Shown piece after piece: positions 27,593 through 48,173 of a DNA stretch of 48,173 nucleotides. Position 1 is the first letter of the stretch. Every line of letters starts with the position of its first letter. Source of the DNA: Phycisphaerales bacterium (GTDB taxonomy: Bacteria; Planctomycetota; Phycisphaerae; Phycisphaerales; UBA1924); the NCBI GenBank assembly GCA_029260535.1, contig JAJDDA010000035.1:1-48173 (forward strand). Reading direction: 5' to 3'. The notes under the pieces were generated by a model. That model ran no database searches and had not been told where the DNA came from. It saw only the letters and a list, made by a program, of their open reading frames with translations. A program made the position numbers and the translations under genes.

Positions 27593-28000
27593 ATCTCAGC
27601 AAATGCACAAGGCAAATGTCGCCTACCACTTAGATTATGCCCGGACGCAATTCGCTGTAGATAGGCGGGAATGCGATGATCCGAACCCGCGGTGTTCCCA
27701 GCCTTCAGTCCGCGAAGAGGGGGTTATGTGAAGCAGTAGAGTGGCACAGATCTGCGGCGATGCATCGTATGCAGGCACCCATGCTTATAAAATTCGCTGC
27801 CGTACATTTACAGCCCGTGATACATTGGCACTAGCAGAGGTGGAACTGCGTGTATCTGTTCTAGAGGCCGTGATCTTAAGGCAGTAAAGAGATGTTGAAC
27901 CCAGAATTATGATGTGTCGGTTGTGTGCCCGAGGCGACCCATGGCTGGCTTTACAGTCATTCGTATTTCGGAATGCGGCCCACATACCGCCCTAGGATGT
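27593..28000. other. Intergenic stretch after the TIR/WD40 gene
   Basis: No gene supported. The part 27890-28000 is similar to the stretch 25321-25430 that precedes repeat unit 2 (GATGTTGAACCCAGAATTAT versus GATGATGAGCCCAAAATCA and a shared run up to the GCGCAAACTC block), so the repeat family extends upstream of the blocks I marked. Confidence 0.4.
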
Positions 28001-28149
28001 GCGCAAACTCCTGGCCACTACGATAGAGGTGCTTGGAATGGTTGAAGGCTGTGTAATGCGGTGCCATTTGATTGGAGCGAGTTGTCAACGGCGAGAGCGA
28101 GGTGCTTGCTGTTGTTTTTGCTACCCGATTGGCTCGTCCGCTACTACTG
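28001..28149 (+). repeat. Dispersed repeat, unit 3 of 3
   Basis: GCGCAAACTCCTGGCC at 28001-28016 and GGCTCGTCCGCTACTACT at 28131-28148, at the same spacing as in units 1 and 2. Units 2 and 3 flank the TIR/WD40 gene on both sides in the same orientation. The unit lies just beyond the 3' end of the TIR-SLOG gene, which comes from the other direction. Confidence 0.6.
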
Positions 28150-28242
28150 AGTATTTGGATAATACGGGATCAAGAACATCGGAGTCAGTCCGGATGGCCC
28201 GGAGAGGAAGACGAGCCTGATCGCTCTCCAGTCGGCCCTCGA

Positions 28243-31391: not shown

Positions 31392-31514
31392 CGCGCTTCC
31401 CTTCGACCCGGTGGAGTGCTTCCACACCCGACAGTATATTCGGCAGCGAACGCATTCATGAAGCTTTGCGAAAGCACGGCCCAGCACCGCACCTCCGCTC
31501 CGAGAGGTGGGGGG

Positions 31515-33164: not shown

Positions 33165-33889
33165 CGTGGCTCCATTGCCGGCAAGGGAGTCGGTATCTTT
33201 CCGTGGATATCTGTTGTGCTTTGTCATTTGACACGAATCTAGCGAAGCATCTAACGGATCGTGGTCGTGCGATCGGAAGTGCCCGCTAGTCGCCCGCTCG
33301 GACGATGAAGGACCATAGCGGGTTCACCTCTCCGAGCATTCCTCGTATCGTCACAAGGCCTTTCTGCCGGCAGTGATCGCCCCCTGTGCAGGTGGGCGGT
33401 ACTTCGGTGAGTTGTGCGGCCAAGAGTGGCGAGGGGGATAATCCCAGCCAGCAATGCTTGATAGCGAGACCCAGTAGACGCGTCCTGTTGAACAGCGGGT
33501 GGCAATGGCACAGATTTGTGTCTCGACGGCATTCAACGATGCGTGCATAACATAGTGCCTTCTCAGCCAGACACCCGCGTTCGCGTTGCTTTGTCAGTAC
33601 CTTCAGGCCCTCTCTTCGCCAGATCGAGTGATGGCGTCAGCACTACAACACTTGCGTTCACACTGCTCGCTCAGCTACCACCCCCGGCCCCCGAAGCGAT
33701 CGCTGCTGGGCCGCCCTCCGCTCCGGGAGGCCCAACAGTGGTGTACAACTAGCGAAAGATTCACATAGACTTTGGACTCAAACCCAAGGGCAGGTCAACT
33801 CCATCTCAAGGAATCGGGCGCTTACCTTCAGTGAACTCATGCTCCACGAATCCAGCCATTCTTTAAGCTTCATGCTCTAGCCCTCACGC
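33165..33889. other. Intergenic stretch with hairpin and IS-end-like sequence
   Basis: No gene could be supported in 700 bases. A long hairpin is at 33703-33738 (CTGCTGGGCC pairing with GGCCCAACAG with one mismatch). GGGCAGGTCA at 33788-33797 is the reverse complement of the TGACCTGCCC end found in triplicate at 34611, so the right end of a lost IS3-like element may be here. Confidence 0.45.
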
Positions 33890-34432
33890 TTAGTACCATC
33901 GCTGCCCGGAGCGATTGTTCTGATAAAGATCACGAGAATTGTCTGGCTCGTGGGTGCTCTTGCGAAGGTACGCACGGTGGATCAGATCCTGAACGGTATC
34001 GGGATCCTCCGTCCAGTCGGCCAACAGAGCGAACTCGCACTGCGCATTATCGTACAGCCGTGGCGGGATCGTGTAGCGGTCGTACGAGTTCGCTCGGTAG
34101 GCTGGGTGCGTAGGAAGGAATAGCCCGAGCAATCCCGAACGCGGATTGAGCTTCGTTGCGCGAATGCTCGACGATAATTCCCAATCAACATGCTTTCGTT
34201 GCCAAGTCTGCGTGCCAATGAGAACCACGGTGACCGATGTGTCACGTAGATACTCATCACGGATTCGCTGGCGGATCGTCTCGGTTCTGAGATTCGGATC
34301 GAGGTCGCCAAGTTGGACGGATCCGTGAACAAGAACGCCGAACCGATTGCCAAATCGCAGCTCAAAGATTTTCTTGTAGCTCTCATCATTGGCGTGATGG
34401 TAGCTGATGAATACGTTGTGGCGTTCTGTCAT
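33890..34432 (-). CDS. ThsB-like TIR protein (DUF1863/MTH538 group)
   Basis: A 180-residue single-domain protein. It opens with HNVFISYHHANDESYKKIFE and has TSVTVVLIGTQTWQRKHVDWEL, which parallels ThsB of Thoeris (SVTxVLIGSQTxxRxxVxxE) including the glutamate after the W. In Thoeris, ThsB senses phage and makes a cyclic ADP-ribose isomer that activates ThsA. No ThsA (SIR2-SLOG or TM-macro) is in this window. The nearest candidate partners are the TIR-SLOG and 2TM genes, also on the minus strand. ATG at 34432 has GGAGG at ideal spacing; the frame extends 14 codons further without one. Confidence 0.85.
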   Translation of the reverse strand: MTERHNVFISYHHANDESYKKIFELRFGNRFGVLVHGSVQLGDLDPNLRTETIRQRIRDEYLRDTSVTVVLIGTQTWQRKHVDWELSSSIRATKLNPRSGLLGLFLPTHPAYRANSYDRYTIPPRLYDNAQCEFALLADWTEDPDTVQDLIHRAYLRKSTHEPDNSRDLYQNNRSGQRWY

Positions 34433-34610
34433 CTGCAGCCTCCAATCTTCGGTCCCGCCTCGTGGCTCCGGCACTGCATTCTATCGCGGAGCTAGAGCTC
34501 CCATCGAGCACCCCGATGGCTGTTTCGACGATATGCGGTAGCACTCATTTCCGTCAACAGGCCACTACTCTTCTATCGCAGAGTGCTCAGCTCGTTGTTT
34601 CAGATCAGAG

Positions 34611-34646
34611 TGACCTGCCCCCTGACCTGCCCCCTGACCTGCCCCC
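34611..34646 (+). repeat. Three perfect 12-bp tandem repeats of an IS end
   Basis: TGACCTGCCCCC is repeated exactly three times (starts 34611, 34623 and 34635) directly in front of the decayed IS3-family element. This sequence is like the terminal inverted repeat of IS3-group elements, which normally occurs once per end. Confidence 0.7.
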
Positions 34647-35431
34647 CAATTCTGATCCATTTCCAGGCCAGTAGTCTTGGCATGGGTCGAGGAGGATTCG
34701 GGCATGGCACACAAGAAGTATTCGGCGGAAGAGTTCGTCAACAAGCTCCGCTAGGTGGAGATTCTAATCGCACTAGGAATAACGGTGGCGCAGGTCTGCA
34801 AGCAGATCGGTGTCACGGACCATGCTTACTACAAGTGGCGCAGAGAATACGGCGGCCTCTAGATCGCCCATGCGAAGCGATTCAAGGAGCTAGAGCAAGA
34901 GAACAACCAGCTCAAGAAGCTGATCGCCGAGGCGCACCTGGATAAAACGATGCCGCAGGAGGTCGTCCGGAGCAACTTCTGTGCCCGCACAAGACGCGTG
35001 AGGCCGTGCATATATTGCGTCGCGGCTTTCGTATTTCCGAAAGGCAGGCGCGCAGGGTGCTCAGGCAACCACAAGCGACACAGCGGAATGCGCCGATCGA
35101 GCGGGATGATGAAGTGCCGCTGGTGAGATGGATTATCGAGTTTGCCACGGCGTAATGGCGCTACGGATACCGGCAGATCACGGCAATTCTACGAACGGAA
35201 GGCTGGCGTGTGAATTATTAACGAATCGAGCGGATATGGCAGCGAGAGGGTCTGAGGGCCCCAAATTAGCAAACGAAGCGCGGCCAGCTATGGCTCAACG
35301 GCCGCCCGACGCACAAGGATCACATGTGGGCGTGCGACTTCATACAAGCACTCACGCATGACGGAAGATCGGTTCCGGATGCTGACGGTAGTCGATAAGC
35401 ACACACGAGAGTGCCTAGCCACCGGCGAACC
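34611..35431 (+). pseudogene. Decayed IS3-family insertion sequence (OrfA and OrfB remnants)
   Basis: OrfA begins at ATG 34704 (MAHKKYSAEEFVNKLR) and is stopped at 34752 (TAG) and 34860 (TAG). Between and after these the IS3 HTH and leucine-zipper parts can still be read (VAQVCKQIGVTDHAYYKWRREYGGL; KRFKELEQENNQLKKLIAEA). OrfB remains from about 34985 (KTREAVHILRRGFRISERQ, YGYRQITAILRTEGWRVNY, DHMWACDFIQALTHDGR, then in another frame FRMLTVVDKHTRECLA) with at least three stops and a frameshift. The integrase core is cut before its last catalytic residues, and no right-hand end is found. Non-functional relic; it marks this stretch as transposition-prone. Confidence 0.85.
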
Positions 35432-35487
35432 ATCTGCAATCGACCTTTGTTTCATCAATTCTTAACGATCTACTACTTTGTTCTGAC

Positions 35488-35493
35488 TATAAT
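35488..35493 (+). promoter_or_regulatory. -10 element close to the start codon (leaderless mRNA candidate)
   Basis: A perfect TATAAT ends six bases before the ATG at 35500, which puts the transcription start at or next to the start codon. No Shine-Dalgarno sequence and no good -35 are present. Confidence 0.45.
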
Positions 35494-35499
35494 TAGTCC

Positions 35500-37071
35500 A
35501 TGGACGCACCTCGACTTGAGCCTGTCCCGTTTAGCCCGGCGGACCGACCGCTGCGCGACATCTTGCTACATGACTTCTTGATGCCCGTAACCGAATGGCT
35601 CTTTGGATCGAGCAGCCAACTTCCTTTAAGCCGACAAGCAGGTAGCAGTTGGGAAGCTTCGCTAAACATATTATTCGCAGTGCGGCTTCTACGAGAGGCT
35701 CAAGTTGGTGACAGCGATCCATTGTTCCAACAACTTCGTACTCAGATCTGTGAACTCGCAGTGTGGCTCTCTGATCAGGGCACGCCGGTAGATACGGGCG
35801 CGGTAGACTATTACGCATGGGAAGAAGTGACGTGGGATACCGCTGTCGCGGTCCGTGCGGTACTTACGGCGCTTCGGGAGTTTCCCGACGAGTTTAATGA
35901 GCAGAAGAGTGAGCTGATACGTTTTCGCTGTGTCCAAGCCGTTACATGGATGATGCGTCGGTGCAGTGATTGGAGGGAAACTGTCAAGTACCCCTTTGGC
36001 CCGGCGGATGTTGCCCAAGTCGTATCTACACTCATCGTCATATCGACGGAGCACCCGGATGTCTCATCAAGTGTCAATCGTATTCTGGATGAGGAAGGAG
36101 CGGTAGCTAGGGCAATCGAGTCCCTCGTAGACGGCTTGCTATGCGATGCCTGCGAGGCGCCCTTCGCGCCCAGTCAAGATCCAGGCGAGCGTCTACAGCA
36201 CTGTTGGTGGGGAGATAATTTCAGCACGGCCGAAGTCATCGATGCTCTCGCACAGTATGCCGACTACGCGTGTGTAGAGGAATCCGATGGCGAGGCCATT
36301 GAACGCTCTGCCAATGCGCAGGTCAGTGTCAGGCGTGCGTGTTCTGTCTTCGACTTGACGCAAGTGGATGGCCAGTGGGGGAGCCACGTCGAGACACTGC
36401 GCGTGACCTATGGCTATTTGCGTGCTGCCTCTTTGCTAAACGGCGTGCTTGCACGGCGGACGACAAAGGACGCTGCAATGCTTCGACCAGAGATTCATGT
36501 ACTGTTCAAGGCAATACGATGGATCTGCGACCCGAAGCAGATCTTCGATGACCGGAGCTTTATGCACACAATGTTCTTGACAGTCTTCTATTGTGATGCG
36601 ATGCTTGAGGTCTACGCGTCTTGGACTCCTGCGCAACGCCCGCTGCTCGACGTGTACGACGACGTGGTCTGGGCCGCCCCGATGCGCGCAACAGCTGAGC
36701 GTGCAGAGCGCGTTTCCCTGGCGATCGACAACGATCGTTTGCGTTGTTCGGAAGTGAAAGCTACCGCAACGGCAGAAAATGCCGCTCGTGAGATTCATCG
36801 GCGGAAGCGTCTGTATCACCGCCTGCGAATGCAGGTAGTGATCGTTAGCGCCTTGTTGCTCGTTGTGCTTCCGATGATGTCGTGGGCAGGCATTGTGCGA
36901 TTCAAAATGCCTGTAGACGTCCTAGATTGGAATGGGCTCCGCGCATGGCTCATTTCTGGTATCGCTGCATCAAGCGCGCTATTATCTCTTAGTTGGTTCA
37001 TCATAAAACGGCATGATGACGACAATGATTGGAAGAACGAGTATGCCCGGCTTAGGTCGAAATCTGATTGA
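35500..37071 (+). CDS. Large helical protein with two C-terminal membrane segments
   Basis: A 523-residue protein. The first 400 residues are helical with Trp/Asp-rich repeats (SWEASLNILFAVRLL, WDTAVAVRAVL, GSHVETLRVTYGYLRAASLL) that look like an alpha/alpha toroid of the terpenoid-cyclase/glycosidase kind, though no catalytic acid motif (QW or DxDD) stands out. Two membrane helices lie near the C-terminus (about 447-466 and 482-503), followed by a charged tail. I know no function for it. It overlaps the aldehyde dehydrogenase gene by 29 bases, so the two are likely coupled. Possibly a membrane-bound sensor or effector; this is open. Confidence 0.65.
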   Translation: MDAPRLEPVPFSPADRPLRDILLHDFLMPVTEWLFGSSSQLPLSRQAGSSWEASLNILFAVRLLREAQVGDSDPLFQQLRTQICELAVWLSDQGTPVDTGAVDYYAWEEVTWDTAVAVRAVLTALREFPDEFNEQKSELIRFRCVQAVTWMMRRCSDWRETVKYPFGPADVAQVVSTLIVISTEHPDVSSSVNRILDEEGAVARAIESLVDGLLCDACEAPFAPSQDPGERLQHCWWGDNFSTAEVIDALAQYADYACVEESDGEAIERSANAQVSVRRACSVFDLTQVDGQWGSHVETLRVTYGYLRAASLLNGVLARRTTKDAAMLRPEIHVLFKAIRWICDPKQIFDDRSFMHTMFLTVFYCDAMLEVYASWTPAQRPLLDVYDDVVWAAPMRATAERAERVSLAIDNDRLRCSEVKATATAENAAREIHRRKRLYHRLRMQVVIVSALLLVVLPMMSWAGIVRFKMPVDVLDWNGLRAWLISGIAASSALLSLSWFIIKRHDDDNDWKNEYARLRSKSD

Positions 37072-38521
37072 CGGCGAGTGGCGTGACTCTGCTCTGACGA
37101 GGCCATGCGTGGACCCCTCCACGGGCAGCGAGTTTGGGCAGGTAGCCATCGCGAACGACCGCGATATCGATGACGCGGTCTCGGCAGCTGCTAAGGCACA
37201 GCAGACTTGGCAGGACATGCCTGTCACTGCTCGAGCAGGCGCACTACGTCAAGCCGTCGAGAGGCTCCGTATAAGCTACGGGAGCGAAGGCGAGGCGACT
37301 CCTCTCAAGCAGCTAATTTCGCAAGAAGTGGGAAAGCGGCTGGAAGAAGCGGACATCGAAGTTGCTGAAACGGCGGATATGCTTGAGTTCTTCTGTGACA
37401 CCGCTCCAGAGACGCTCGCCGACGAACAACTCGATCTCAACAAGGAGCTCTGGCCGAACAAGCGAAGTCTTATCCGCCATGAACCTCTCGGCGTCGTTGC
37501 CTGCATCAAAGCATGGAACTATCCGATTGAGATACCGATCTGGACGCTCGGGGCAGCCCTCGTAGCAGGCAACACCGTCGTCTTCAAGCCCTCGGAGAAT
37601 GCAAGTCTATCTGGCATTGAACTGACGCAGCATCTACAGCAGTGCCTGCCACCGGGCGTATTGAACCTGATCAACGGGGCGGGCGATGTTGGTGCTAAAC
37701 TTGCAAGCCATAGGCGAATAAATTCCATCAGTTTCACGGGTAGTGCAAGCGTTGGGCGGGAACTCTCGGTGAAGGCAGCTGCAGAGGGGAAGCACATAAC
37801 GGTCGAGGCCAGCGGCAACGACGCCGCGTTGGTCCTGAGTGACTGCGATATCGAACTCGCCGCAAATGGGCTGGTGTGGGGCGCATTTTGTAACTCTGGG
37901 CAGGTGTGCGTTGGTGTCAAGCGTGTGTATGCCGTGTCATCGATAGCAGATGATCTGGTTCGTGCGATACAAGCGAAGACGGCCGCCTTACGCGCAGGCA
38001 TCGACTTCGGCCCCTTGATCTCGCGGGAACAAACCGTTGCTTTCCAAGCTTTCGTAGATCAGGCGATATCAGTTGGTGCCAAGCTCGTTGCCACTCCTGA
38101 CGGTGACATCCCCGAGAAAGGATTCTATGCCGCGCCTTGTGTGCTTGACGGCGTTCCCGACACTGCAATGCTGCTAACCGACGAATGTTTCGGACCTGTT
38201 CTCCCGATAGTCCGAGTGGCTGATGAGCGAGAGGGAATCGAGCGAGCCAACGCATCTCGGTACGGCCTTGGAGCGTCGGTCTGGACGCGAGACAATGATA
38301 ATGGTCGCCGAGTTGCGGAGCAGCTTAACGTGGGCATGGTCTGGCTAAATGACGTCAACGTGGCGTTCCCCCAAGCCCCTTGGGGGGGGCGAAAATTAAG
38401 CGGCCTCGGGACAGAGTTGTCCTATCTAGGAATTCGCGAATACACACAGCCAAAACACATCTGCATCGAGGAGAGCGCCGATGCTGATCGCGTTTGGTGG
38501 TATCCGTACGGCAGGGGCTAA
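37043..38521 (+). CDS. Aldehyde dehydrogenase family protein
   Basis: A 492-residue NAD(P)-dependent aldehyde dehydrogenase. The active-site residues are in place: Asn159 (AWNYPIEIP), general-base Glu255 (VEASGND) and nucleophile Cys289 (NSGQVCVGVKRV). The Rossmann signature SISFTGSASVG is complete, and the C-terminal APWGGRKLSGLGTE end fits. ATG 37043 is preceded by GGAAGAA; an ATG ten codons upstream is possible. It overlaps the preceding gene and ends two bases before the decarboxylase, so all three are probably one transcript. The aldehyde substrate is unknown; placement next to a decarboxylase suggests an amino-acid-derived one. Confidence 0.9.
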   Translation: MPGLGRNLIDGEWRDSALTRPCVDPSTGSEFGQVAIANDRDIDDAVSAAAKAQQTWQDMPVTARAGALRQAVERLRISYGSEGEATPLKQLISQEVGKRLEEADIEVAETADMLEFFCDTAPETLADEQLDLNKELWPNKRSLIRHEPLGVVACIKAWNYPIEIPIWTLGAALVAGNTVVFKPSENASLSGIELTQHLQQCLPPGVLNLINGAGDVGAKLASHRRINSISFTGSASVGRELSVKAAAEGKHITVEASGNDAALVLSDCDIELAANGLVWGAFCNSGQVCVGVKRVYAVSSIADDLVRAIQAKTAALRAGIDFGPLISREQTVAFQAFVDQAISVGAKLVATPDGDIPEKGFYAAPCVLDGVPDTAMLLTDECFGPVLPIVRVADEREGIERANASRYGLGASVWTRDNDNGRRVAEQLNVGMVWLNDVNVAFPQAPWGGRKLSGLGTELSYLGIREYTQPKHICIEESADADRVWWYPYGRG

Positions 38522-38523
38522 CC

Positions 38524-39066
38524 ATGTGGTATGCGACAACGCAGATAATTCTTACGTCGGGCTCGGCACAAGGTGGAACGGAGCTTAATGCGTTTGACAA
38601 CGGGCTTCGCGCGGCCTGCATCGCTGATTTCAATCTCCTTAAAGTAACGAGTATCACTCCTGCAGGGACCCCTGTTCTGCATCTAGGGACGAAAGCCGGG
38701 GAGGTGGACGGAAACGGCTTGCTTATCCCGGCCGTGTATGAAGTGAGTTTTGCGTCATCCCAACGCCCTGTAGTGGGCGTGGCCGTCGGTGTCGGCATTC
38801 CCTGTGAGTCTGAAGGACGAGCGGGCTTGATCTTCACGGCGATAACTGACGGTTGTGCGGAAGAAGCAGAGGATCTCGTAACCCAAATGGTCAACGAAGG
38901 AATGGCGCAGAAAGCGATCACGAATTATCGCGTGGAAGTTGCGGCAATTGACGCACGGTTCAAGGGGCGGCCGGCTTGTGCCGTCGCAGCAGCAGTGTTC
39001 TGTGACAGCACGGCGGCTAGTCTTTTTGCTGGCATGACGACGACAAGACGCAGAGCAACTCCCTAA
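38524..39066 (+). CDS. Pyruvoyl-dependent arginine decarboxylase-like protein
   Basis: A 180-residue member of the pyruvoyl-dependent arginine decarboxylase family, which converts arginine to agmatine with a self-made pyruvoyl group. The family signature SGSAQGGTELNAFDNGL and the self-cleavage region LLKVTSITPAGTPV (cleavage expected before the Ser) are present, as is VGVAVGVGIP. Such enzymes are usual in archaea and some bacteria. Start ATG two bases after the stop of the aldehyde dehydrogenase. Whether arginine or another amino acid is the substrate cannot be read from the sequence. Confidence 0.85.
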   Translation: MWYATTQIILTSGSAQGGTELNAFDNGLRAACIADFNLLKVTSITPAGTPVLHLGTKAGEVDGNGLLIPAVYEVSFASSQRPVVGVAVGVGIPCESEGRAGLIFTAITDGCAEEAEDLVTQMVNEGMAQKAITNYRVEVAAIDARFKGRPACAVAAAVFCDSTAASLFAGMTTTRRRATP

Positions 39067-39123
39067 GCGGGTAAGTCGGTCCGTTAACGATATACGTGCG
39101 ATGTGCAAGCCCGGTGTGGGGGG

Positions 39124-39275
39124 GATTCACCACAGCTTGAATCCGAATCCTCGCCGAGACCCCGCAAATGCAACCAAGCCATTGATTCATGATTGGTTGA
39201 GAGTCTGGGTTGTTGCCGATCATTGCCGATTCTTGTCAAACTTGAGGCGCGCCGTTGGAACTCAATTGGGAACTC
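39124..39275 (+). repeat. Direct repeat B: attachment-site-like element
   Basis: Second copy of the element at 24781-24941, same orientation, 14.3 kb away. Shared blocks: GATTCxCCAC, CTTGAATCCGxATCCTCGC, TTGTTGCCGATCxTTGCCGA and GGAACTCAxTTGGGAACTC. The 10-bp tandem repeats are reduced to two clear units. The tRNA-tail-like bases in front differ from copy A. Confidence 0.7.
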
Positions 39276-39414
39276 CGGTGGGGCGAGAAATGGACTACTT
39301 GCCCCCCTTGAGAAGATCCCACCTACATCCGGCCCCAGAGTATCCCAGAGGCTGAAACGGATTAATGGGAGCAGGACACACCGCCCGTACAGGGTTGCCA
39401 TATACTGCCAAATC

Positions 39415-40122
39415 TCAATCCTCCTGTTTGAAGTATCGATCCAGCTGATTGACACGAGCCAGCTCCCCGAACGCCTTGCTGTAATCCAGCAATGCAATCC
39501 TTAGGCACTCAAGATCCTTTCTGCACTCTTGGCTCTGTGCCTCGCTGAATTCGCTAGTGTCCGAGCAATCGTAAGGTATTATTGAGTGCCACTTCGTCAG
39601 GAACGGGCGAACCTCAACGTTGAGCATACGTATCGCGAGCAATTCCACCGGTGTGCCCGAACTACTCTGCGTCGGTGAAAAATTTTTTACGAGTTCCCGT
39701 GTCGACAAAAACAACTGATACAACGATTCAAGCGCATCCCGAAGTAACCCGCCATCTGGGTCAAGTGGTTGTGTTGATACACGTGTCATAGTGTCGACGA
39801 AGAATTTCCATGCCACTGTGCGATACTCAGAATTGACCACAAACACCATCTCTGAAAAATGCGGCACCGATACAGTCACGGTCTCTAGAACTAGAGCGGA
39901 TCGATGCTTTCTATGGTGATGAACTCCTGTCGCGACGACTGCTCCGGCGAGCCCTCCTAAGGATACAGCCAAATAGACGCCGTCTAATCCCGACACACTG
40001 AATACGAGCCATCCAATAACGGTGCCACTGCCATATCCGATAAAGGCCATCACGATCCACGATTTCTTGAGCCACTGCCAAGCCTGACGTATTTTTCTCC
40101 GGCTTGGAGTCATGGATTTCAT
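39415..40122 (-). CDS. Two-TM protein of an uncharacterised TIR-associated family (copy 2)
   Basis: A 235-residue protein with two membrane helices (about 22-44 and 47-67), a short beta stretch (VTVSVPHFSEMVFVV) and the family signature RTVAWKFFVDTMTRVSTQPL, ALESLYQLFLSTRELVK and LNVEVRPFLTKWHS. It aligns with copy 1 at 30246-31391 through residue 220 but lacks that protein's last 150 or so residues, so the 2TM plus signature is the core of the family. Third gene of a minus-strand set with a ThsB-like TIR and Nmad2, 48 bases after the latter. GGAG precedes the ATG. Effector role inferred. Confidence 0.75.
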   Translation of the reverse strand: MKSMTPSRRKIRQAWQWLKKSWIVMAFIGYGSGTVIGWLVFSVSGLDGVYLAVSLGGLAGAVVATGVHHHRKHRSALVLETVTVSVPHFSEMVFVVNSEYRTVAWKFFVDTMTRVSTQPLDPDGGLLRDALESLYQLFLSTRELVKNFSPTQSSSGTPVELLAIRMLNVEVRPFLTKWHSIIPYDCSDTSEFSEAQSQECRKDLECLRIALLDYSKAFGELARVNQLDRYFKQED

Positions 40123-40170
40123 GCCGCGCTACTCCATTTTATTGAATATTTGTGATCATTGGACCAGCTA

Positions 40171-40749
40171 CTACCAATCCATGGGCGAGCCGACACATCC
40201 GTGATGATCTTGAGTCAATATCCAATCAAGGAATCGTGCTTTCTTACTTTCCGCAAAGTTACAGCGATATCCACGCACAGCACACATACCGCGGAGATCT
40301 TCGGGGATCTCTGGTCCAGTACCGCCCCAATACCCAAACTCTCTACCTATTAGCACTCTAGAAACCTGGGTGTCATGTACAACATTTACAGGATTCGGCT
40401 TTCCATCGGGAAAACTGTGATGCGAAGCCGCCTGTAACCATTCGCCGGAGGGCACTTGCCGCCGGTAAATATTATCACCGTACGCTTGCTTGAGACTCCC
40501 ACAAAAACATGGGCGCTTGCGTCGGTATCGCATATCGACCCAATACTCGTCATAAGTAGTGGCCTCTTCGACCCGCATCCAGTACACCATACGCCATCGG
40601 TTGGGAACCCTTCCCGTCCCGATCACATAGTCACCTATTGATGCACCCTTCCTGATGCCCGGCTTACACGTTGCAAGCGTGCATACTCCGAAGAACGGAT
40701 TTGGCGCAAAACCGTAATCGCGTGCGACAACATATAGGTACATTCGCAT
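40171..40749 (-). CDS. Nmad2-family protein (nucleotide modification-associated domain 2)
   Basis: A 192-residue protein that I recognise as Nmad2 from its opening YLYVVARDYGFAPNPFFGVC, then LATCKPGIRKGASIGDYVIGTG, and FGYWGGTGPEIPEDLRG. The family is predicted to work on or bind modified nucleotides, since its relatives occur in DNA base-modification clusters; no biochemical role is proved to my knowledge. Its start follows the stop of the ThsB-like gene by one base, so it belongs to the same transcript. An in-frame ATG two codons later is the other possible start. Conserved cysteines C23 and C28 could bind metal. Confidence 0.82.
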   Translation of the reverse strand: MRMYLYVVARDYGFAPNPFFGVCTLATCKPGIRKGASIGDYVIGTGRVPNRWRMVYWMRVEEATTYDEYWVDMRYRRKRPCFCGSLKQAYGDNIYRRQVPSGEWLQAASHHSFPDGKPNPVNVVHDTQVSRVLIGREFGYWGGTGPEIPEDLRGMCAVRGYRCNFAESKKARFLDWILTQDHHGCVGSPMDW

Positions 40750-40750
40750 A

Positions 40751-41224
40751 TTAACAGTTGTAGCGATCTATTGCTCTAGGTGTTCGTGGTTGACCGTCCG
40801 GACTATCCCAATCATTGATCGCCCCGTCGATTGCACCAATGATTTTATCAGCCTGCCAGCCCACGATCGCGTCGGCGAGTTTATCGAGTTGCTCAGGAAT
40901 GTCGCAATCATTTGCGCCGTGATCCCAAACTCCAACAATCCGTTTTTCGAGTCCGTGTGCATACTCAATCTCCCAATTCACCCACTCGCTTTCATGAGTA
41001 TCTGGAGAAATGAGTACGACGAGCGCTCCCGCCCATTGTATCTTTGGTGCGAGAATCTGTTGCTTTATGTATTCTTCACTATGCGCATTGTTTGGATTCT
41101 CTTTGTTTACCGAGCTGTCACGAACATCGCGCCCATTATTACTCAGGAGATCCTTGAGAGAGTTGAGCCTGTCATCGTCTTCGTGAATGTGGCTTATGAA
41201 AATATTTCTCGTCTTATCACCCAT
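40751..41224 (-). CDS. ThsB-like TIR protein partnered with Nmad2
   Basis: A 157-residue single-domain TIR protein: RNIFISHIHEDDDRLNSLKDLL at the N-terminus, GALVVLISPDTHESEWVNWEIEYA with the catalytic-type glutamate after the W, and RIVGVWDHGANDCDIPEQL. The order and size are those of DUF1863/ThsB proteins. It is the first gene of the TIR-Nmad2-2TM set. ATG at 41224 has GAGGTG five bases upstream; the 15 codons before it have none. Likely role: NAD-cleaving signal producer or sensor. Confidence 0.85.
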   Translation of the reverse strand: MGDKTRNIFISHIHEDDDRLNSLKDLLSNNGRDVRDSSVNKENPNNAHSEEYIKQQILAPKIQWAGALVVLISPDTHESEWVNWEIEYAHGLEKRIVGVWDHGANDCDIPEQLDKLADAIVGWQADKIIGAIDGAINDWDSPDGQPRTPRAIDRYNC

Positions 41225-41382
41225 TCTGCACCTCTGTTGATGTCTGTGGCCGCATGGTTCCTCGTGCACATCCCGATAGATACTCTAGTATACCCAGTTC
41301 TAACACCTTCATTGGGACTTATGTAGCTCATAAGTTAGCCACCTTACCCCTGCATTGGGGATTACTTGAGGTGTGCTCCCAA

Positions 41383-41713: not shown

Positions 41714-42103
41714 TTGGATTCACAGTCTTCAGTTCGAGGACTTGGCATCGACCTAGTGCCCATTGAGACCATACGTCTTGCACTCCGCCGCGATCCCGAC
41801 GCTGCATTCGCGTGGTTGACCGAAGCAGAATTCGAAGCACTTGATGATCGGGCATCGCATGCCGAGGTGCTCGCAGGACGTGTGGCCGCCAAGGAAGCCG
41901 TAGTAAAGTCGCTGGGTTGCGGTTTCGATGACGAAGTTGCTTGGCAGGATGTAATCGTATCGGTCGATGATTCTGGAGCTCCAGTTGTGTTACTAGCTGG
42001 CGGCGCAGCGATCGTGGCGAAACGGAATGGCGTGCAACGGATACTCATTAGCATCACCCATGCTGGCGAGTTTGCGGCTGCGTCCGCATATGCGATGACC
42101 TAG
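41714..42103 (+). CDS. acpS: Holo-ACP synthase-type 4'-phosphopantetheinyl transferase
   Basis: A 129-residue AcpS-type enzyme, which moves 4'-phosphopantetheine from CoA to a carrier protein. The magnesium-binding aspartate is in GLGIDLVPIETI and the second motif is GRVAAKEAVVKSLG. The end RILISITHAGEFAAASAYA is typical. The annotated start is TTG at 41714, with only a weak AGACAAGAA upstream. It stands alone between the TIR set and the hypermodification operon; a carrier protein partner is not visible. It may be a second, accessory copy. Confidence 0.88.
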   Translation: MDSQSSVRGLGIDLVPIETIRLALRRDPDAAFAWLTEAEFEALDDRASHAEVLAGRVAAKEAVVKSLGCGFDDEVAWQDVIVSVDDSGAPVVLLAGGAAIVAKRNGVQRILISITHAGEFAAASAYAMT

Positions 42104-42104
42104 C

Positions 42105-42989
42105 TCACATGCCCAAGTAGCAGATTGTCCTAGCGTCCAGGTCGAGCTCAACCTTGCCACCCTGGTTCTCTTGGACTTGTTTCCAGACTTCGTAACCCAT
42201 CAATATCGTTCGTTCCCATTCACCAGTAGTGCATACCGCCACCTCAAATTTCGATACCGTAATGCGAATGGCCTTGAGTAGATCGTAGTCAAGTGATTTG
42301 ATCCCTTCGAGGGATTTGTGATTACACGCGTATGCAAACACAAGTGCTGAGATGCCCTCCTCTGTCACGATGGCACGTCCTCCGTCTTCAACTTCGTCGA
42401 CACGCGCATCGCTGCGCCTCTTCTTCCCGAGGTGCTTCCGTATAACTGGAGACCAACCGAGAACGGCAACGCAAGCTAAGTGGAACACATCGTGGAACTG
42501 GTACCCGTCCGGTGTGTGCGCGTTGTCCGTCAACGGGTCACCCATTTGATCTCCATCTACGAAAACTTTGGTCTTGACGATGCCACCTTCTTCAAAGCGA
42601 CGAAAGTCCGCGATAAACTTGCGCGGGAATCGCTCATCTTCCGAGAACTTGGAATCAAACGCGTGTGACTCGAACAGCGTTCCATCACTGCCTGCGGTTC
42701 CCCACCGCGCCCTGGTCTTGGACAGGTTGCGATTTGCCACCGTCTCCAGATCGAGGCCAAATTGCGTCGCAGTTTCAGCAACGTACCAAAGTATGTCGCC
42801 AAGCTCCTCTACGAGCCGCTCCGGGAATCGCTCATGTGCATCACCGTCACGGAGTTTCTTCTTGTATTCGTTGAGCAATTCGCCCACCTCTCCGGCGAGG
42901 CCAAGAATGGGCACCATCGCATCGGTACCCTCCGCGTGTGCCTTCTGAACCGTACCGTGCGCTTGCGTCTGATATTGGCTGAGTTGCAT
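42105..42989 (-). CDS. MazG-type nucleotide pyrophosphohydrolase with C-terminal extension
   Basis: A 294-residue protein. Residues about 1-100 are a MazG-like all-helical NTP pyrophosphatase with the ExxE...ExxD metal motif (GLAGEVGELLNEYKK and LVEELGDILWYVAE). Residues 110-290 are a second domain (DGYQFHDVFHLACVAVLGW, VTEEGISALVFAYA), which I recall as a MazG C-terminal domain found in base-modification clusters. It would hydrolyse a (d)NTP, either to clear the normal base or to supply the monophosphate. ATG 42989 has AGGAG; the stop of the kinase gene lies four bases upstream. Last gene of the operon. Confidence 0.85.
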   Translation of the reverse strand: MQLSQYQTQAHGTVQKAHAEGTDAMVPILGLAGEVGELLNEYKKKLRDGDAHERFPERLVEELGDILWYVAETATQFGLDLETVANRNLSKTRARWGTAGSDGTLFESHAFDSKFSEDERFPRKFIADFRRFEEGGIVKTKVFVDGDQMGDPLTDNAHTPDGYQFHDVFHLACVAVLGWSPVIRKHLGKKRRSDARVDEVEDGGRAIVTEEGISALVFAYACNHKSLEGIKSLDYDLLKAIRITVSKFEVAVCTTGEWERTILMGYEVWKQVQENQGGKVELDLDARTICYLGM

Positions 42990-42993
42990 TGGA

Positions 42994-44718
42994 TTACTCC
43001 TGTCGATTGGTGTACAGAGTGCCGGCGTCCCGTGCGGGATGACTAAGACGCCATTTTGAAATATGTTCATTCAGGCCCCATTTGGGCGGATACCACGGTT
43101 CGAGAAGTGCCCCCTTCGGTGATAAGCGCTGCTTGATGCGCGTCCTGCCCGAGATGCCGCTGACTTCCGGATGCTTGACTCGTGCATACTTGTCAACTTC
43201 GCAGAAGAGGTTCTGGCAATCAATCAACTGCAAGGGCCGCCCCCACAGCGAGTTGAAATTGAGTCCTAAGCGATCGAACTCAACCTCCTGACGGTCGGCC
43301 ATGAACCGGATGACCTCTGGCTCATTCAGCCCGCCGGTGTCGAGGAAACACTTCCGGATTCCGTCGATCGCCCCTGGGCCAGGCACCACGAACCCCAACT
43401 CCGGAAAATCCGTGAGCTCGCTGTAGTTCAGATCGGTAGTGTACTGGTACGCGAGAAAGTCTCCGATGCCGGGGTACGACTTGAGCAACTCGAAGGCGAT
43501 CTGCATTGAGCTGCAGTTAGTCAGACGATCGGGGAGATCGTCTGACAGCATCCTCTCAAGAAGCACCAGATGATTCCGGTGCTTCCTCTCGTGACCGAGC
43601 GAACCGCCACCTGACGGCATGATGTACGCGGCCGAGTAGATCGATTGACCCGACTGCATCGCGTGCGAGAGGACGGTATCGTATCGCTTGAACGAGAATT
43701 CCTCAGCAACCAAAGGACCGATTTCGCGTTCGAGAAGCTCCCATGTCTCAATTTTATTGAAAAGCTTGAAAAGCATAACACGGAAGAACACCTCCTCCAT
43801 TGAGGTTGGAAGATTGTCACCGTAGATGACCCGTCGTACCAGATACTGGCTAACCCGGTCCGACGCTCGGTACGCATTTGTGAACTTGTGTTCAGCGATG
43901 ATTGGATCGCAAGTCCAGGGAGGCGATGCGCCTTCAAGCCGCTTGAAGAATACACGCTGGCGTTCAGCTGCAAATCGCCAGTAGGTGTCGTATACCACGG
44001 ATGGTTTCAGTGGAAGAATACCGCCTTGAGAAGCTCGGCGCGTTCGAGTTTTGACTACAGCCAAGACATCTTGCTCACCGTGCTTCGGGCGTTCCAATTG
44101 AGCACGGCTTGGTATGGCGGCAACGATGTCTCCGACAACTCGATCAGGTTGAGCCGTATTTTCTCTAGACAACACTGTGTAAGTGCGGCCTTCACGTGCC
44201 GCAAGCCGGTCATACTCTGACGCAAGCTCGCGCCAATGAGTAATATCCACATTACAACCGGGGGATCGCGGTCTCCGAAGGAGAACAACGAGTGTTGGAT
44301 TGATGTGACGCCAGGCTGTGCGCTCGGCGTTGATCAAGGCGCGAAGCGTTCGGCGATCGCAACCCGCAGAGATCCCGTACACCCACGCAGACCACCAGAA
44401 TCGATCTAGGATTACTGTGGCGCCATCCCGAAAGGCGGGGGTGATCAAGCGCTCGATCGCGTCAAGATGCGCGGCGATGTGCAAAGCCTGCATCGCCAGA
44501 CAAGCGATCTCCGTAGATCGAACCCGTCCATCATCATGATGGACTTGGTACACCAGTTCTCCGACAGTACCAGGTTCCCGACCCGGAAAGGAAAATTCGA
44601 CAACGGACTCGCCACGCTTCCGGAAGTCGACGGCAAGGAGCTTGGCGATTGTTGTCTTTCCGACGCCATCGGGACCTTCGAGCACAATTAGACGTCCGTG
44701 TCCTTCGTCCGGACCCAT
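42994..44718 (-). CDS. Thymidylate kinase-like / 5-hmdU DNA kinase-like fusion
   Basis: A 574-residue two-domain protein. The N-terminal 210 residues are a thymidylate-kinase-like P-loop domain (IVLEGPDGVGKTTIAKLL, LDRFWWSAWVYG). The C-terminal part, from about residue 240, has YWRFAAERQRVFFKRLEG, IIAEHKFTNAYRASDRVSQYL and SGGGSLGHERKH, which I recognise as the helical domain formerly called alpha-glutamyl/putrescinyl-thymine pyrophosphorylase and now 5-hmdU DNA kinase. In phages these proteins phosphorylate 5-hydroxymethyluracil in DNA for hypermodification. TGATG overlap with the stop of the upstream gene; ATG 44718. Fused TMP-kinase plus HMUDK domain is striking. Confidence 0.82.
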   Translation of the reverse strand: MGPDEGHGRLIVLEGPDGVGKTTIAKLLAVDFRKRGESVVEFSFPGREPGTVGELVYQVHHDDGRVRSTEIACLAMQALHIAAHLDAIERLITPAFRDGATVILDRFWWSAWVYGISAGCDRRTLRALINAERTAWRHINPTLVVLLRRPRSPGCNVDITHWRELASEYDRLAAREGRTYTVLSRENTAQPDRVVGDIVAAIPSRAQLERPKHGEQDVLAVVKTRTRRASQGGILPLKPSVVYDTYWRFAAERQRVFFKRLEGASPPWTCDPIIAEHKFTNAYRASDRVSQYLVRRVIYGDNLPTSMEEVFFRVMLFKLFNKIETWELLEREIGPLVAEEFSFKRYDTVLSHAMQSGQSIYSAAYIMPSGGGSLGHERKHRNHLVLLERMLSDDLPDRLTNCSSMQIAFELLKSYPGIGDFLAYQYTTDLNYSELTDFPELGFVVPGPGAIDGIRKCFLDTGGLNEPEVIRFMADRQEVEFDRLGLNFNSLWGRPLQLIDCQNLFCEVDKYARVKHPEVSGISGRTRIKQRLSPKGALLEPWYPPKWGLNEHISKWRLSHPARDAGTLYTNRQE

Positions 44719-45557
44719 CAAGCACCACCCGCGAACAAACCGGCTTTTTCGAGGGCCTGCTCGCACGCCTCAGCGAGCGGCTCACCGAGTCCTTTTTTGG
44801 GGCCATACTGGGATTCCATCTTTTCCATGCCGATGAAGCACGAGAGACGGTCTACGACCAGCCCTGACTCTACTGCAACGAAGCAGGCAAGCCTAGCAAG
44901 GCCTAAGAAGTTCCCGTAGCCCTTCATGAACAACTGCTGCGTTGCGTAGAACGCATTCATGGAGATTGTTCCATCGTTGCACCGGATAAATGAGATATGC
45001 TGCAGGCAAGGGAAGCTCAGTCGAGCGTCGTTAACGTGGTCCCGAGACGGGTCGAACACCGATGCCTGCAACTTCATTTTCTGTACGCCCTTCACGCACT
45101 TACTGATGATTACTTCGATCTGGTTACCGTCCTCAGCAATCGACCCCGGCGGGTAGTTTTTGAGCGGAATTCCAGTTCGATGGTCTAGGCCGTATGCAAT
45201 AAGGCGACCGAAGTAGAGTCCTCGCCTGTTCTTATGCGTGTCAAGGGCCACGTAATCAGGCAGCGACTCCTTATAGCTCTGATAGAATACCGCCCGGTCG
45301 CCCTTGGCACGACGCCACAGCACTTGTGGAAAAATCGTGTTCGCCACGGTCTGTACTGTTTGATAGTCAGAGCCTACGAGCGCCGTATCCACCGCACCCC
45401 GTATGTCCTTGTCTTCAAAAGGGCCGTCTTCATCGAATCCGGTGAAGCTGACCATGAGAGGAGATATCGTGTGTCCACGGGCCTGTCGGACCGCCAGGAA
45501 CGCCTCGGCCCACGCCAGAGACAGGTTGGGTTGATCGATCAGAATTGGCTTACTCAC
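44718..45557 (-). CDS. Thymidylate-synthase-like enzyme (predicted dUMP hydroxymethylase)
   Basis: A 279-residue ThyA-superfamily protein. The catalytic cysteine is probably C184 in SFPCLQHISFI, followed by NDGTISMNAFYATQQLFMKGYGN, the equivalent of the dUMP-binding strand. The distance of the sequence from normal ThyA and its partners suggests a deoxynucleotide hydroxymethylase making 5-hydroxymethyl-dUMP. The start is GTG at 45557 with GAGGAG seven bases before, overlapping the IrrE stop; the ATG at 45599 has no ribosome binding site. It overlaps the kinase start by one base. Confidence 0.75.
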   Translation of the reverse strand: MSKPILIDQPNLSLAWAEAFLAVRQARGHTISPLMVSFTGFDEDGPFEDKDIRGAVDTALVGSDYQTVQTVANTIFPQVLWRRAKGDRAVFYQSYKESLPDYVALDTHKNRRGLYFGRLIAYGLDHRTGIPLKNYPPGSIAEDGNQIEVIISKCVKGVQKMKLQASVFDPSRDHVNDARLSFPCLQHISFIRCNDGTISMNAFYATQQLFMKGYGNFLGLARLACFVAVESGLVVDRLSCFIGMEKMESQYGPKKGLGEPLAEACEQALEKAGLFAGGA

Positions 45558-46410
45558 CGTCGGTCTCCTCAAGATGGCGATACCTCGCCAATCCTGCATA
45601 TTGCATCCGTGATACGCGTACGATCACGCCAAACCCATCCGCCTCCACGCGCGCCAGCCCAGGTCGCACGGCGCGGAACACCCGCCCACGAGCGACGTCT
45701 TTAACCGGCTGGATCTGGTCGGATTCGGTTTCGGTCCCCTCGGGAAGCAGCACGAGATTCCCAACCTCCGCGTCCAGCGTGCCCATCGTGTGGTGCCTGT
45801 CAGCGATTACGAGCTGCTCCCTGGCGGGCGCAGCGAGGATCTGCTCGCGGATTTTCGGGAGATTGGTCTTGCAGAGTTTCTCTGCCCGTTCTCGCGGGAT
45901 GTACTTCAGCCCGTACGCGAGGTGCCCAATGAGGGTCTTGTACCCCACGCCAAAGGAAGAGGCCACTGTGTATATCTCTTCGGGCGTCGCGCTTTCCATC
46001 CGGATTTTCCGCGACGAGAACGCGCGCTTGACCCCTTGTGCCGGCATGAGAAGGTAACCTGCGAATGCTTCGACGAGGAATTCTACCGGATTGAAAGCTT
46101 CACATTCCGCCTCGTCTTTGAGTTCGTCGATTGTGGATCCGTGCCCGAAGACATGGTGCCCGAGCTCGTGTGCGCATGTGAACGCGCGACGCGTCAGCGG
46201 CCGGAGTGACGACAGGATGATGCTCGGCTTCGCCAGGGCCGCGTATACGCCCTCCATGCTGACGTCGTCTACGAACCTCACACGAACGCGCGCCTTATCG
46301 CACAGTTCATACACACACAAAGGCGATCGGTAGTCGTAATTGTGCCCGTCCCGCACTTCGAGAGAGCGCTCGAGCGCTTCTCGGGCAAGGTCTTTGGTCG
46401 TTGGCGTCAC
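45550..46410 (-). CDS. ImmA/IrrE-family metallopeptidase
   Basis: A 286-residue zinc peptidase. The HExxH motif lies in CAHELGHHVFGHG and the third ligand region in FLVEAFAGYLLMP. Such proteases cut or inactivate a partner Xre repressor, as ImmA does for ImmR in ICEBs1 and IrrE for DdrO in Deinococcus. The C-terminal 90 residues form a beta-rich domain (GTLDAEVGNLVLLPEG, RVFRAVRPGLARVEADGFGVI) that could sense a ligand. It follows the Xre gene by two bases, so the pair is a repressor-protease switch. Confidence 0.9.
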   Translation of the reverse strand: MTPTTKDLAREALERSLEVRDGHNYDYRSPLCVYELCDKARVRVRFVDDVSMEGVYAALAKPSIILSSLRPLTRRAFTCAHELGHHVFGHGSTIDELKDEAECEAFNPVEFLVEAFAGYLLMPAQGVKRAFSSRKIRMESATPEEIYTVASSFGVGYKTLIGHLAYGLKYIPRERAEKLCKTNLPKIREQILAAPAREQLVIADRHHTMGTLDAEVGNLVLLPEGTETESDQIQPVKDVARGRVFRAVRPGLARVEADGFGVIVRVSRMQYAGLARYRHLEETDGE

Positions 46411-46412
46411 GG

Positions 46413-46757
46413 CTATTGCTCCTGGTCACGCATCGAGGCGAGAATTGACATTAGCCGGTTGAGATCGTCCGGCTTGAGCTTTTGCAACTCACGCGCCGCG
46501 AGCTGCAATCGGTCATCGTGCGGATCGAGCTGATGAGCGCCCTCCCCGAGTAGCCACGTAATTGTCACATCGAAAATGTCGGCAAGCTCCGCCAGCTCTT
46601 CCGCAGATACCGACCTGTTACCTGATTCCATCTCCGAAACCGATGGGCGATGTAGTCCGATCATCTTGGCCACTTGACCCTGTGACAACCCCGCCATCCT
46701 GCGCGCTTCGCGAATGCGCGAGGCGATGATCTGTCGTTTCGACTCAGGTACGGTCAT
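46413..46757 (-). CDS. Xre-family transcriptional regulator
   Basis: A 114-residue protein with an N-terminal helix-turn-helix of the Xre/lambda-cI type (SRIREARRMAGLSQGQVAKM, IGLHRPSVSEMESGNRSVS) and a helical C-terminal arm (LQLAARELQKLKPDDLNRLM) for dimerisation or protease recognition. ATG 46757 has AAGGAG at nine bases; a GTG at 46766 would overlap the upstream stop by four. It lies directly before its presumed protease. The half-sites at 47056-47080 near the operon promoter are its probable operator. Confidence 0.92.
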   Translation of the reverse strand: MTVPESKRQIIASRIREARRMAGLSQGQVAKMIGLHRPSVSEMESGNRSVSAEELAELADIFDVTITWLLGEGAHQLDPHDDRLQLAARELQKLKPDDLNRLMSILASMRDQEQ

Positions 46758-46762
46758 TGTGC

Positions 46763-47044
46763 TCACTCCTTGCAGTAAAGCTCACGGAATCGCGCAGCGA
46801 CGCCCTTGAGCGATAGTTTGTGCTTTGTCGCATCGATGTAGGGGTTTCTGAGGCGGGACCCACGGGGGATCTCGATCCCTAGCGCCTTGGCGAGCCCCCG
46901 CACAGCGGTAGGGATTAACGGACTATCAAATCCCACTAGTCCATCGATTGGCATCGTGCCGCCTGTAACGAGTGATGGGTCTTCGCCTGCGTCTTCCTCG
47001 ATCTGGCGGTGTTGTTCTAACAGGCATTCCAGAATTCGGTCCAT
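46763..47044 (-). CDS. Small hypothetical protein, first gene of the operon
   Basis: A 93-residue protein without a recognised domain: an N-terminal acidic helix (RILECLLEQHRQIEEDAGED) and a C-terminal basic region (RLRNPYIDATKHKLSLKGVAARF). It may be an antirepressor or a small adaptor. ATG with GGAGAT at eight bases upstream. Its stop overlaps the region where the Xre gene begins, so they are coupled. Only its position at the head of the hypermodification operon hints at a role. Confidence 0.65.
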   Translation of the reverse strand: MDRILECLLEQHRQIEEDAGEDPSLVTGGTMPIDGLVGFDSPLIPTAVRGLAKALGIEIPRGSRLRNPYIDATKHKLSLKGVAARFRELYCKE

Positions 47045-47055
47045 GCTTAGATCTC

Positions 47056-47102
47056 CTTACGGGAAGTAAGAATATCTTACATTCTGTTGGACTCCATGTC
47101 AA
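47056..47102 (-). promoter_or_regulatory. Sigma-70 promoter with a triple half-site operator
   Basis: On the minus strand TTGACA (47102-47097) and TAAGAT (47079-47074) are separated by exactly 17 bases. The -10 region is covered by GTAAG-N5-CTTAC (47066-47080), and a further CTTAC (47056-47060) forms a second inverted repeat with the same GTAAG. The three half-sites are spaced 10 bp apart, one helical turn each, as expected for cooperative binding of an Xre repressor. The ribosome binding site AAGGAG follows. Confidence 0.75.
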
Positions 47103-47210: not shown

Positions 47211-48173
47211 CTAAGTCGCCCAGAATGGAACGTACTGCACGTGCCGACGGGACTTATTGGACGGGTCGAACGGCTTGATCAGACCGGCATCTACGGCTTC
47301 GGCAATGAGCCGGGAGACCATCGCAAGATTTCCCTTCGCGATCCCGAAACGATTCCGAAGCGAACCATTCGTCATCCTCTGGCTCGAAACCCACTGGAGA
47401 CTCGCGTGCTGGTATGTCGCCCGCAGCCGCTCGTCTTTGGTCATCTCCCCGAACGAGCGCGGCCCATTGATGATCGCTCGGGTGTGGCCCTCGACAACTT
47501 GGAAATCGGGAGCCGGCAATATCGCATCCTCAGCAGCCTGGACGACCTTATCGATCCCGGTGCCACGTTCCTCGCAGATGCGCATACGCCGCATCAAGGC
47601 GGCGAGAGCTTCATTGCGTGAGCGCGGCGGCGCATCGAGGAAACGCCGCACGTCGACGAGCGGCTCACCCGGGTTCGTGATCTCGATCCGGTCTGAGAAG
47701 ATGTCAACCATCGGCCCGACACCGGATATCGAGAAATCTTGGTGGATGAGCGCATTTCCAAGCAATTCACGGATTGCGTCCGCCGGGTACGCCTGTTGCT
47801 CCACTCGCAAACCGTGCTCAATGCGTTCTTGGCTCGGCACCTGACTCTCGATGTTGTCCAGAACACTCTGGAACCCAACCGCGTAGCCCGACGTCACCAC
47901 CTTCTCACGCACCGCCTTCGTCTTGCCCGGGTCGTCGTACGTTACGACCCGGACCGCCTTCCGCCCGAGACGTCCGAACGCTTCCAGATCACGCGCGAAC
48001 AAAATGGCCGCGATGTTGAGGACGTCAAAGTGCCCATCGTAGCGTGATTTGAGGAGCCCCTCTTCGACGAACCGCTGCACAATCGCGTCGGCGTCGGACG
48101 GTGCCTGGGACGAGAGCATCTTGAAGAACGCAGTGTGATCGAGCAGTGCGATGATATCGGCCGCGCTCGCGCC
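47211..48173 (-). CDS. AlbA/Schlafen-type ATP-binding protein, 5'-truncated by the window edge
   Basis: About 320 residues of the C-terminal part of an ATP-dependent DNA-binding-like protein. The middle part is a GHKL-type ATPase domain (DAIRELLGNALIHQDFS, VDIFSDRIEITNPGEP, MRICEERGTGIDKVV). A winged-helix-like C-terminus follows (GSLRNRFGIAKGNLAMVSRLI). An N-terminal AlbA_2/Schlafen domain is expected beyond the right edge, since the frame stays open to 48173. Such proteins are common in accessory regions and are suspected regulators or defence factors. It is separated from the hypermodification operon by the promoter region and is probably not part of it. Confidence 0.82.
   Translation of the reverse strand, partial: GASAADIIALLDHTAFFKMLSSQAPSDADAIVQRFVEEGLLKSRYDGHFDVLNIAAILFARDLEAFGRLGRKAVRVVTYDDPGKTKAVREKVVTSGYAVGFQSVLDNIESQVPSQERIEHGLRVEQQAYPADAIRELLGNALIHQDFSISGVGPMVDIFSDRIEITNPGEPLVDVRRFLDAPPRSRNEALAALMRRMRICEERGTGIDKVVQAAEDAILPAPDFQVVEGHTRAIINGPRSFGEMTKDERLRATYQHASLQWVSSQRMTNGSLRNRFGIAKGNLAMVSRLIAEAVDAGLIKPFDPSNKSRRHVQYVPFWAT

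Follow-up and report, generated by a model that had tools for sequence, protein, structure and literature searches.

Enzymes that modify thymidine have recently been connected with phage defense. In E. coli, systems with thymidylate synthase (TS), deoxynucleoside monophosphate (dNMP) kinase, 5-hydroxymethyldeoxyuridine (5-hmdU) DNA kinase, and NMAD domains were validated as phage-protective (DeWeirdt, Mahoney, Laub 2026; DefensePredictor; PMC13092281). The protection is described there without a mechanism, and the figure legend is silent on whether the four domains share one operon. MazG/MazG-C and aGPT-PPlase operons are also predicted there to be defensive (PMC13092281 Fig. 6F, which cites Burroughs et al. 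2015). Here, we analyzed contig JAJDDA010000035.1 of a Phycisphaerales bacterium (assembly GCA_029260535.1; 48,173 nucleotides, hereafter the window), which carries an operon of thymidine-type enzymes behind an Xre repressor and an ImmA protease. The locus is a member of this broad known kind, to which it adds a carrier protein, the carrier-activating enzyme AcpS, and an operator. In our reading it is a cassette against phage that modifies thymidine, is inducible, and moves horizontally, and its own holo-carrier participates in the reactions; for this reading as a whole we put the probability at roughly 55%.

Going by the domain names in the figure legend, the validated E. coli system has the domain set of our locus, where TS-like, TMK, and HMUDK proteins are encoded in the operon and Nmad2 in a separate gene pair nearby. 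Three of the related loci described below (L018, L056, and L077, by our own locus labels) have matching ThsB-Nmad2-TMK-HMUDK-ThyA content. However, the carrier, AcpS, and Xre/ImmA are not mentioned in the available part of the E. coli description, and in the window MazG-MazG_C stands where a canonical ThyA would be, alongside a TS-like enzyme of a divergent family. The aGPT-PPlase/MazG/MazG-C operons share MazG, MazG_C, and nucleotide-modification domains with our locus; there too, carrier, AcpS, and operator go unmentioned in the part of PMC13092281 available, and an earlier description in older comparative papers is possible. The thymidine hypermodification pathways of phages SP10, PhiW-14, ViI, M6, and PaMx11 match in the helical domain HMUDK_hel and have TS, kinase, and MazG types in common with the cassette. 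Unlike them, the cassette is bacterial and repressor-controlled, includes a carrier, AcpS, and a Tmk-type kinase, and lacks phage replication genes. A literature search joining carrier, phosphopantetheinyl transferase, MazG, and TS returned nothing relevant, although an earlier mention in Iyer 2013 or Burroughs 2015 is possible.

An earlier note on this DNA, made from the sequence, had described a six-gene thymine-hypermodification operon under Xre/IrrE control. All six minus-strand genes are present and intact where it placed them (Table 1), and profile matches confirm the families of all but the first. The genes make up one operon, in which neighbors overlap or abut as they would in a single transcript. 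The set was incomplete, since a seventh gene, acpS, converges on mazG from the plus strand and is part of the cassette. The long overlaps between genes are probably artifacts of start choice, because the starts of homologs point to Met28 of MazG (42989) and Met17 of TMK-HMUDK (44718) as the probable first residues.

We scanned GTDB genomes and found 231 relatives of the TMK-HMUDK fusion protein. Eighty loci were kept, and all of their open reading frames (ORFs) were mapped with the window proteins and with profiles built from them; counts over 81 loci include the window. By record title, the 80 loci span Planctomycetota, Proteobacteria, Cyanobacteria, Bacteroidota, Acidobacteria, Chloroflexota, and others, with copies in Rhodoplanes, Bradyrhizobium, and Nostoc among them (L032, L055, L022). 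The nearest relatives (L003) by themselves point to a planctomycete as the probable host. The search for the same gene order proposed in the earlier note bore out a conserved arrangement, carrier - Xre - ImmA - TSL - (TMK) - HMUDK - MazG - AcpS, where TSL is the TS-like enzyme. Because so many public loci hold the HMUDK protein, most of them in this order and across many bacterial phyla, the locus is not a product of chance. The order was confirmed in five further genomic regions, at least three of which (G064, G073, and G135) lie outside the first set. The carrier gene occurs in 63 of the 81 loci, accompanied every time by TSL (63/63). Among 49 clusters at 80% HMUDK identity, 36 have the carrier and 15 have both carrier and AcpS.

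The cassette is modular. MazG_C and a second, canonical ThyA downstream are near-exclusive alternatives (both in 2 loci, p 3e-11), as are the carrier/TSL module and a ThsB(TIR)-Nmad2 pair upstream (p 2e-7); both p values assume independent loci, an assumption that holds only in part. Only the window and L024 combine the carrier with Nmad2. In L024 (5092-12714), both alternative modules stand in one run, carrier-Xre-ImmA-TSL and then membrane protein-ThsB-Nmad2-TMK-HMUDK-ThyA.

The locus is accessory and patchily distributed: 8 of 200 relative genomes carry HMUDK, and copies also occur on plasmids. The genome has its own ThyX and Tmk and two other AcpS genes, so the cassette is not housekeeping, and we rejected a housekeeping thymidylate operon.

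The first gene of the operon had been suggested as the trigger of the switch. This is ruled out by its serine conservation, structural model, and fold, which instead indicate a carrier protein. The serine of an FDS / xDS / LTS motif is the single fully invariant residue, conserved in 62 of 62 aligned members. The window protein itself has no family match in profile searches, including none to PF00550, and divergent orthologs score above the PF00550 cut-off (3.9e-6 in L013 and 2.4e-4 in L008). In an AlphaFold2 model, with a predicted local distance difference test (pLDDT) score of 88.5, residues 41-54 form a helix whose first residue is Ser41. The Foldseek list of PDB matches to this model consists almost entirely of acyl carrier proteins (ACPs), each with a weak E-value (best 0.19), and VIA gave a Z score of 8.8 and a root mean square deviation (rmsd) of 2.4 over 77 aligned residues. 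The sole PDB sequence match of the carrier profile, a KRE29 peptide (E 0.23), was taken as chance. On alignment and model, the first gene is a predicted carrier protein of the acyl/peptidyl-carrier fold.

AcpS would be the enzyme that activates it. The window AcpS scores 47.1 bits against PF01648 (cut-off 25) and has the motifs GID and AAKEAVVK. In 33 of the 81 loci, an AcpS homolog on one strand or the other is found at -46 to +34 bp relative to the stop of MazG; in the 1.39 Mb that the loci cover, 33 of 38 AcpS matches are no more than 60 bp away from where MazG ends and 5 are elsewhere. The genome has three AcpS proteins, and that of the window is nearer to most cassette AcpS proteins from other phyla than to the remaining two; distances among cassette AcpS proteins track those of HMUDK (rho 0.79). 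This kinship and the concentration of matches at the MazG end rule out a chance chromosomal neighbor, and the simplest reading of these sequences is a dedicated carrier-activating enzyme.

Strong support for the Xre/ImmA switch proposed in the earlier note comes from an operator that overlies the promoter and is conserved among loci; Xre would bind to it. Of the 63 carrier genes, which come from several phyla, 47 are preceded by a palindrome, GTAAG[AC]N3[TG]CTTAC, and 40 of the 42 strict sites in the same 1.39 Mb are so placed. In the 3.09-Mb genome, it is a single site. Two of the 200 relative genomes have the exact operator, both of them HMUDK-positive. One of the two, G064, lay outside the first set of loci and showed operator, carrier, Xre, ImmA, TSL, TMK, HMUDK, and ThyA in order, so the operator predicted the cassette out of sample. 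Promoter- and terminator-like matches in the window region are no more frequent than chance, and therefore the promoter call rests on conservation across loci, with TTGAC -35 boxes at the same place in relatives. The palindrome is probably the Xre operator, and GTAAGANNNTCTTAC is the candidate Xre target sequence. The adjacent Xre and ImmA genes, the latter with a HEXXH-type HELGH motif, recall the CapH/CapP (helix-turn-helix plus ImmA) regulators of the cyclic-oligonucleotide-based anti-phage signaling system (CBASS), to which PADLOC matches both. Unlike CapH/CapP, the pair here belongs to an operon of enzymes, follows a carrier gene, and has its own palindrome.

The enzymes are of thymidine type, as the earlier note had it, and their catalytic residues are intact; the TS is not canonical, and the kinase label of HMUDK is misleading. 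Neither window nor genome has a PF00303 match, and the genome has no other ThyA. TSL keeps the PC cysteine (Cys198) and the uracil-binding GN asparagine (Asn230), each in 66 of 66 sequences, so the loss of the ThyA cysteine that would have spoken against the enzyme set is not seen. Its best sequence match among solved structures is the CMP 5-hydroxymethylase MilA (5b6d, E 0.014), a weak match, with FYATQ in TSL where a RAND-type motif would be. By sequence, TSL belongs to the TS superfamily without being a canonical ThyA. In the TMK part, GPDGVGKT and DRxWWS are intact. MazG matches a dCTP pyrophosphatase (6sqw, 3e-5) with the MazG acidic residues conserved. HMUDK and MazG_C are fused in one ORF in L036 (9902-11878, 659 residues) and L075 (9542-12259, 906 residues), which supports a joint function of HMUDK and MazG. 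In the Bacteroidota loci L073, L080, and L082, a lone MazG_C (about 190 residues) lacks the MazG domain and is directly followed by AcpS; because it stands alone there, MazG_C may be the essential part.

The second half of the fusion protein had been named a 5-hmdU-DNA-kinase domain. HMUDK_hel is intact, but the P-loop of the protein is of Tmk type (PF02223) and absent from most homologs, and the helical domain was modeled (pLDDT 92.8) with a DNA-glycosylase-like fold. Its best VIA match is the 5-phosphomethyl-dU (5-PmdU) glycinyltransferase of phage PaMx11 (8z2n; Z score 10.9, rmsd 4.1, 230 residues aligned), followed by DUF2419 and then OGG/AlkA glycosylases. Foldseek returned no significant PDB match for the model, and the HMUDK profile, run against PDB sequences, turned up chance matches only. 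Among viral models, the SP10 5-hmdU DNA kinase came first (4e-15), with PhiW-14 at 8e-8. HMUDK_hel is probably a base-handling domain and not itself the kinase.

These parts suggest the following scheme. At rest, Xre would sit on GTAAGA-N3-TCTTAC over the -10 box. As with CapH/CapP and ImmA/ImmR, a stimulus would lead ImmA to cleave Xre and so turn the operon on. AcpS would put phosphopantetheine on Ser41 of the carrier. TSL would use Cys198 to activate a uracil nucleotide at C5, and the strict pairing of carrier and TSL suggests that the added group may come from the holo-carrier or pass to it. From their families, TMK would phosphorylate the product and MazG would remove competing dNTPs, while HMUDK_hel, with its base-flipping fold, could add this group to the base or exchange it there. 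Phage replication would then be halted by the altered nucleotide or base. We infer the stimulus, the loading of the carrier, the reaction, the targeting of DNA, and the protection against phage, and defense by nucleotide or DNA chemistry is the leading reading among those that we compared. A more specific version, that a C5-methylene-type uracil intermediate is captured by the carrier's phosphopantetheine arm, or a group received from it, before placement in DNA, is tentative; it overlaps both this scheme and the small-molecule alternative below.

Several points weigh against the defense cassette with a working carrier. To our knowledge, no carrier-type cassette has been tested for defense. 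AcpS is not found nearby in 28 of the 63 carrier loci, and no recurrent carrier-charging enzyme (ligase or acyltransferase) was seen among the clustered nearby ORFs. TMK may be fused, separate, or absent in relatives, and most HMUDK homologs lack the fused kinase. TSL has FYATQ in place of RSND (IIRSND) and no SLHVY-like motif when set against the canonical ThyA compared, so its substrate is uncertain. Finally, orthology to the validated E. coli system (PMC13092281) is at most putative, and blastn searches started from two relatives returned no E. coli match.

The best of the alternatives, which we consider possible though doubtful, is that the product is a small diffusible nucleoside or nucleotide, an antimetabolite or signal, and not modified DNA, and that it poisons phage DNA synthesis or triggers the neighboring TIR proteins. 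TSL would then act like the CMP hydroxymethylase of mildiomycin synthesis, its nearest solved structure, and the carrier and the phosphopantetheinyl transferase would serve as they do in the making of natural products; a carrier with a dedicated AcpS is typical of metabolite pathways. About a dozen other loci have HMUDK next to ThsB-Nmad2, and TIR genes lie near. However, no ligase, transporter, or tailoring gene recurs near the loci, the HMUDK_hel fold resembles that of DNA glycosylases, and loci that have the carrier module seldom have ThsB-Nmad2 as well. The ThsB-TIR/Nmad2 pair is HMUDK's alternative partner module, here adjoining the cassette, and may be a separate system.

Marking of the host's own DNA with hypermodified thymine, for protection or self-discrimination, was among the functions first suggested and would account for the presence of every enzyme type of phage thymine hypermodification. 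We regard it as unlikely. It is disfavored because no nuclease recurs in the neighborhoods; TMK is missing from most copies, and a repressed, single-site switch fits an emergency response better than constitutive marking.

Slightly less probable again is domesticated or resident phage DNA-modification machinery, a prophage remnant. Relatives of HMUDK_hel do occur in many phages, and two viral contigs (L087 and L088) carry parts of the cassette. However, 13 of 15 viral contigs with relatives lack carrier and TSL, and HMUDK homologs in annotated phage records are at most 33% identical, those listed covering mainly the helical domain, whereas bacterial copies are mostly 55-80% identical in that domain. 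No phage structural or packaging gene was found among the window genes scanned, which the contig end at 48173 bounds on the right, and as far as examined no relatives were seen in intact prophages. Least probable is that the operon has nothing to do with phage and serves metabolism or repair under stress, supplying thymidine or cleaning it up: DNA damage is another signal to which Xre/ImmA switches respond, and the genome relies on ThyX, but the patchy occurrence, the TIR-rich island, and the diverged TS-like active site all speak against it.

Table 1. Features of the cassette and the adjoining genes, with positions in the window
Feature	Position	Strand	Basis
Predicted carrier protein (ACP/peptidyl carrier protein fold), invariant Ser41 at helix 2 start	46763..47044	-	93 residues; alignment, AlphaFold2, PDB fold matches
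Xre-family repressor	46413..46766	-	HTH_3 1e-15; CapH-like 9e-17 (PADLOC)
ImmA/IrrE metalloprotease, HELGH	45550..46410	-	Peptidase_M78 1e-13; CapP-like 4e-13 (PADLOC)
Divergent thymidylate-synthase-like enzyme (TSL)	44718..45599	-	no Pfam; TIGR03283 thymidylate synthase 3e-8; Cys198 and Asn230 invariant
TMK-type P-loop kinase (residues ~24-206) fused to HMUDK_hel domain (~246-545)	42994..44766	-	PF02223 Thymidylate_kin 6e-14; PF18723 5.8e-111
MazG pyrophosphohydrolase with MazG_C	42105..43070	-	PF03819 5e-8; PF18722 1e-72
AcpS 4'-phosphopantetheinyl transferase, converging on MazG	41714..42103	+	PF01648 2.7e-12
ThsB-type TIR	40751..41269	-	ThsB_TIR 3e-25
Nmad2	40171..40749	-	Nmad2 4e-59
Promoter TTGACA-N17-TAAGAT upstream of carrier gene	47074..47102	-	best promoter-like match of region, 10/12
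Palindromic operator GTAAGATATTCTTAC = GTAAGA-N3-TCTTAC over -10 box, putative Xre site	47066..47080	.	conservation across loci

The first 23 kb of the window (1-23 kb) are core chromosome (RpoD, DnaG, RNase R). Five TIR genes follow within 16 kb (25643-41269): WD40-TIR at 25643, TIR with SLOG LD_cluster2 at 28243, TIR-WD40 at 31515, and ThsB-TIR at 33890 and 40751, which suggests a dense TIR defense island. A membrane-type protein (39415-40122), Nmad2, and ThsB-TIR stand in a row (39415-41269). They may be one TIR system, because partial relatives of the membrane protein lie near ThsB-Nmad2 in L024, L027, L071, and L074. On the other side, a gene with a RecG-C/AlbA-like ATPase domain (47211-48119) lies upstream of the carrier, with an 88% relative at the same place in L003. 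From sequence, we named by eye an AbiE-type-looking toxin-antitoxin pair near the cassette in L031, L032, L035, L043, L045, L051, L055, and L057, and tyrosine integrases near six loci.

Where thymidine-modifying enzymes have recently been shown to be phage-protective, without a mechanism (PMC13092281), this cassette adds a carrier, the enzyme that would activate it, and one operator that is conserved. A single point mutation would suffice to test the serine, and likewise the cysteine or the operator. If the carrier does join the chemistry, carrier-protein biochemistry would be linked to nucleotide or DNA modification, a link we did not find in the literature searched.

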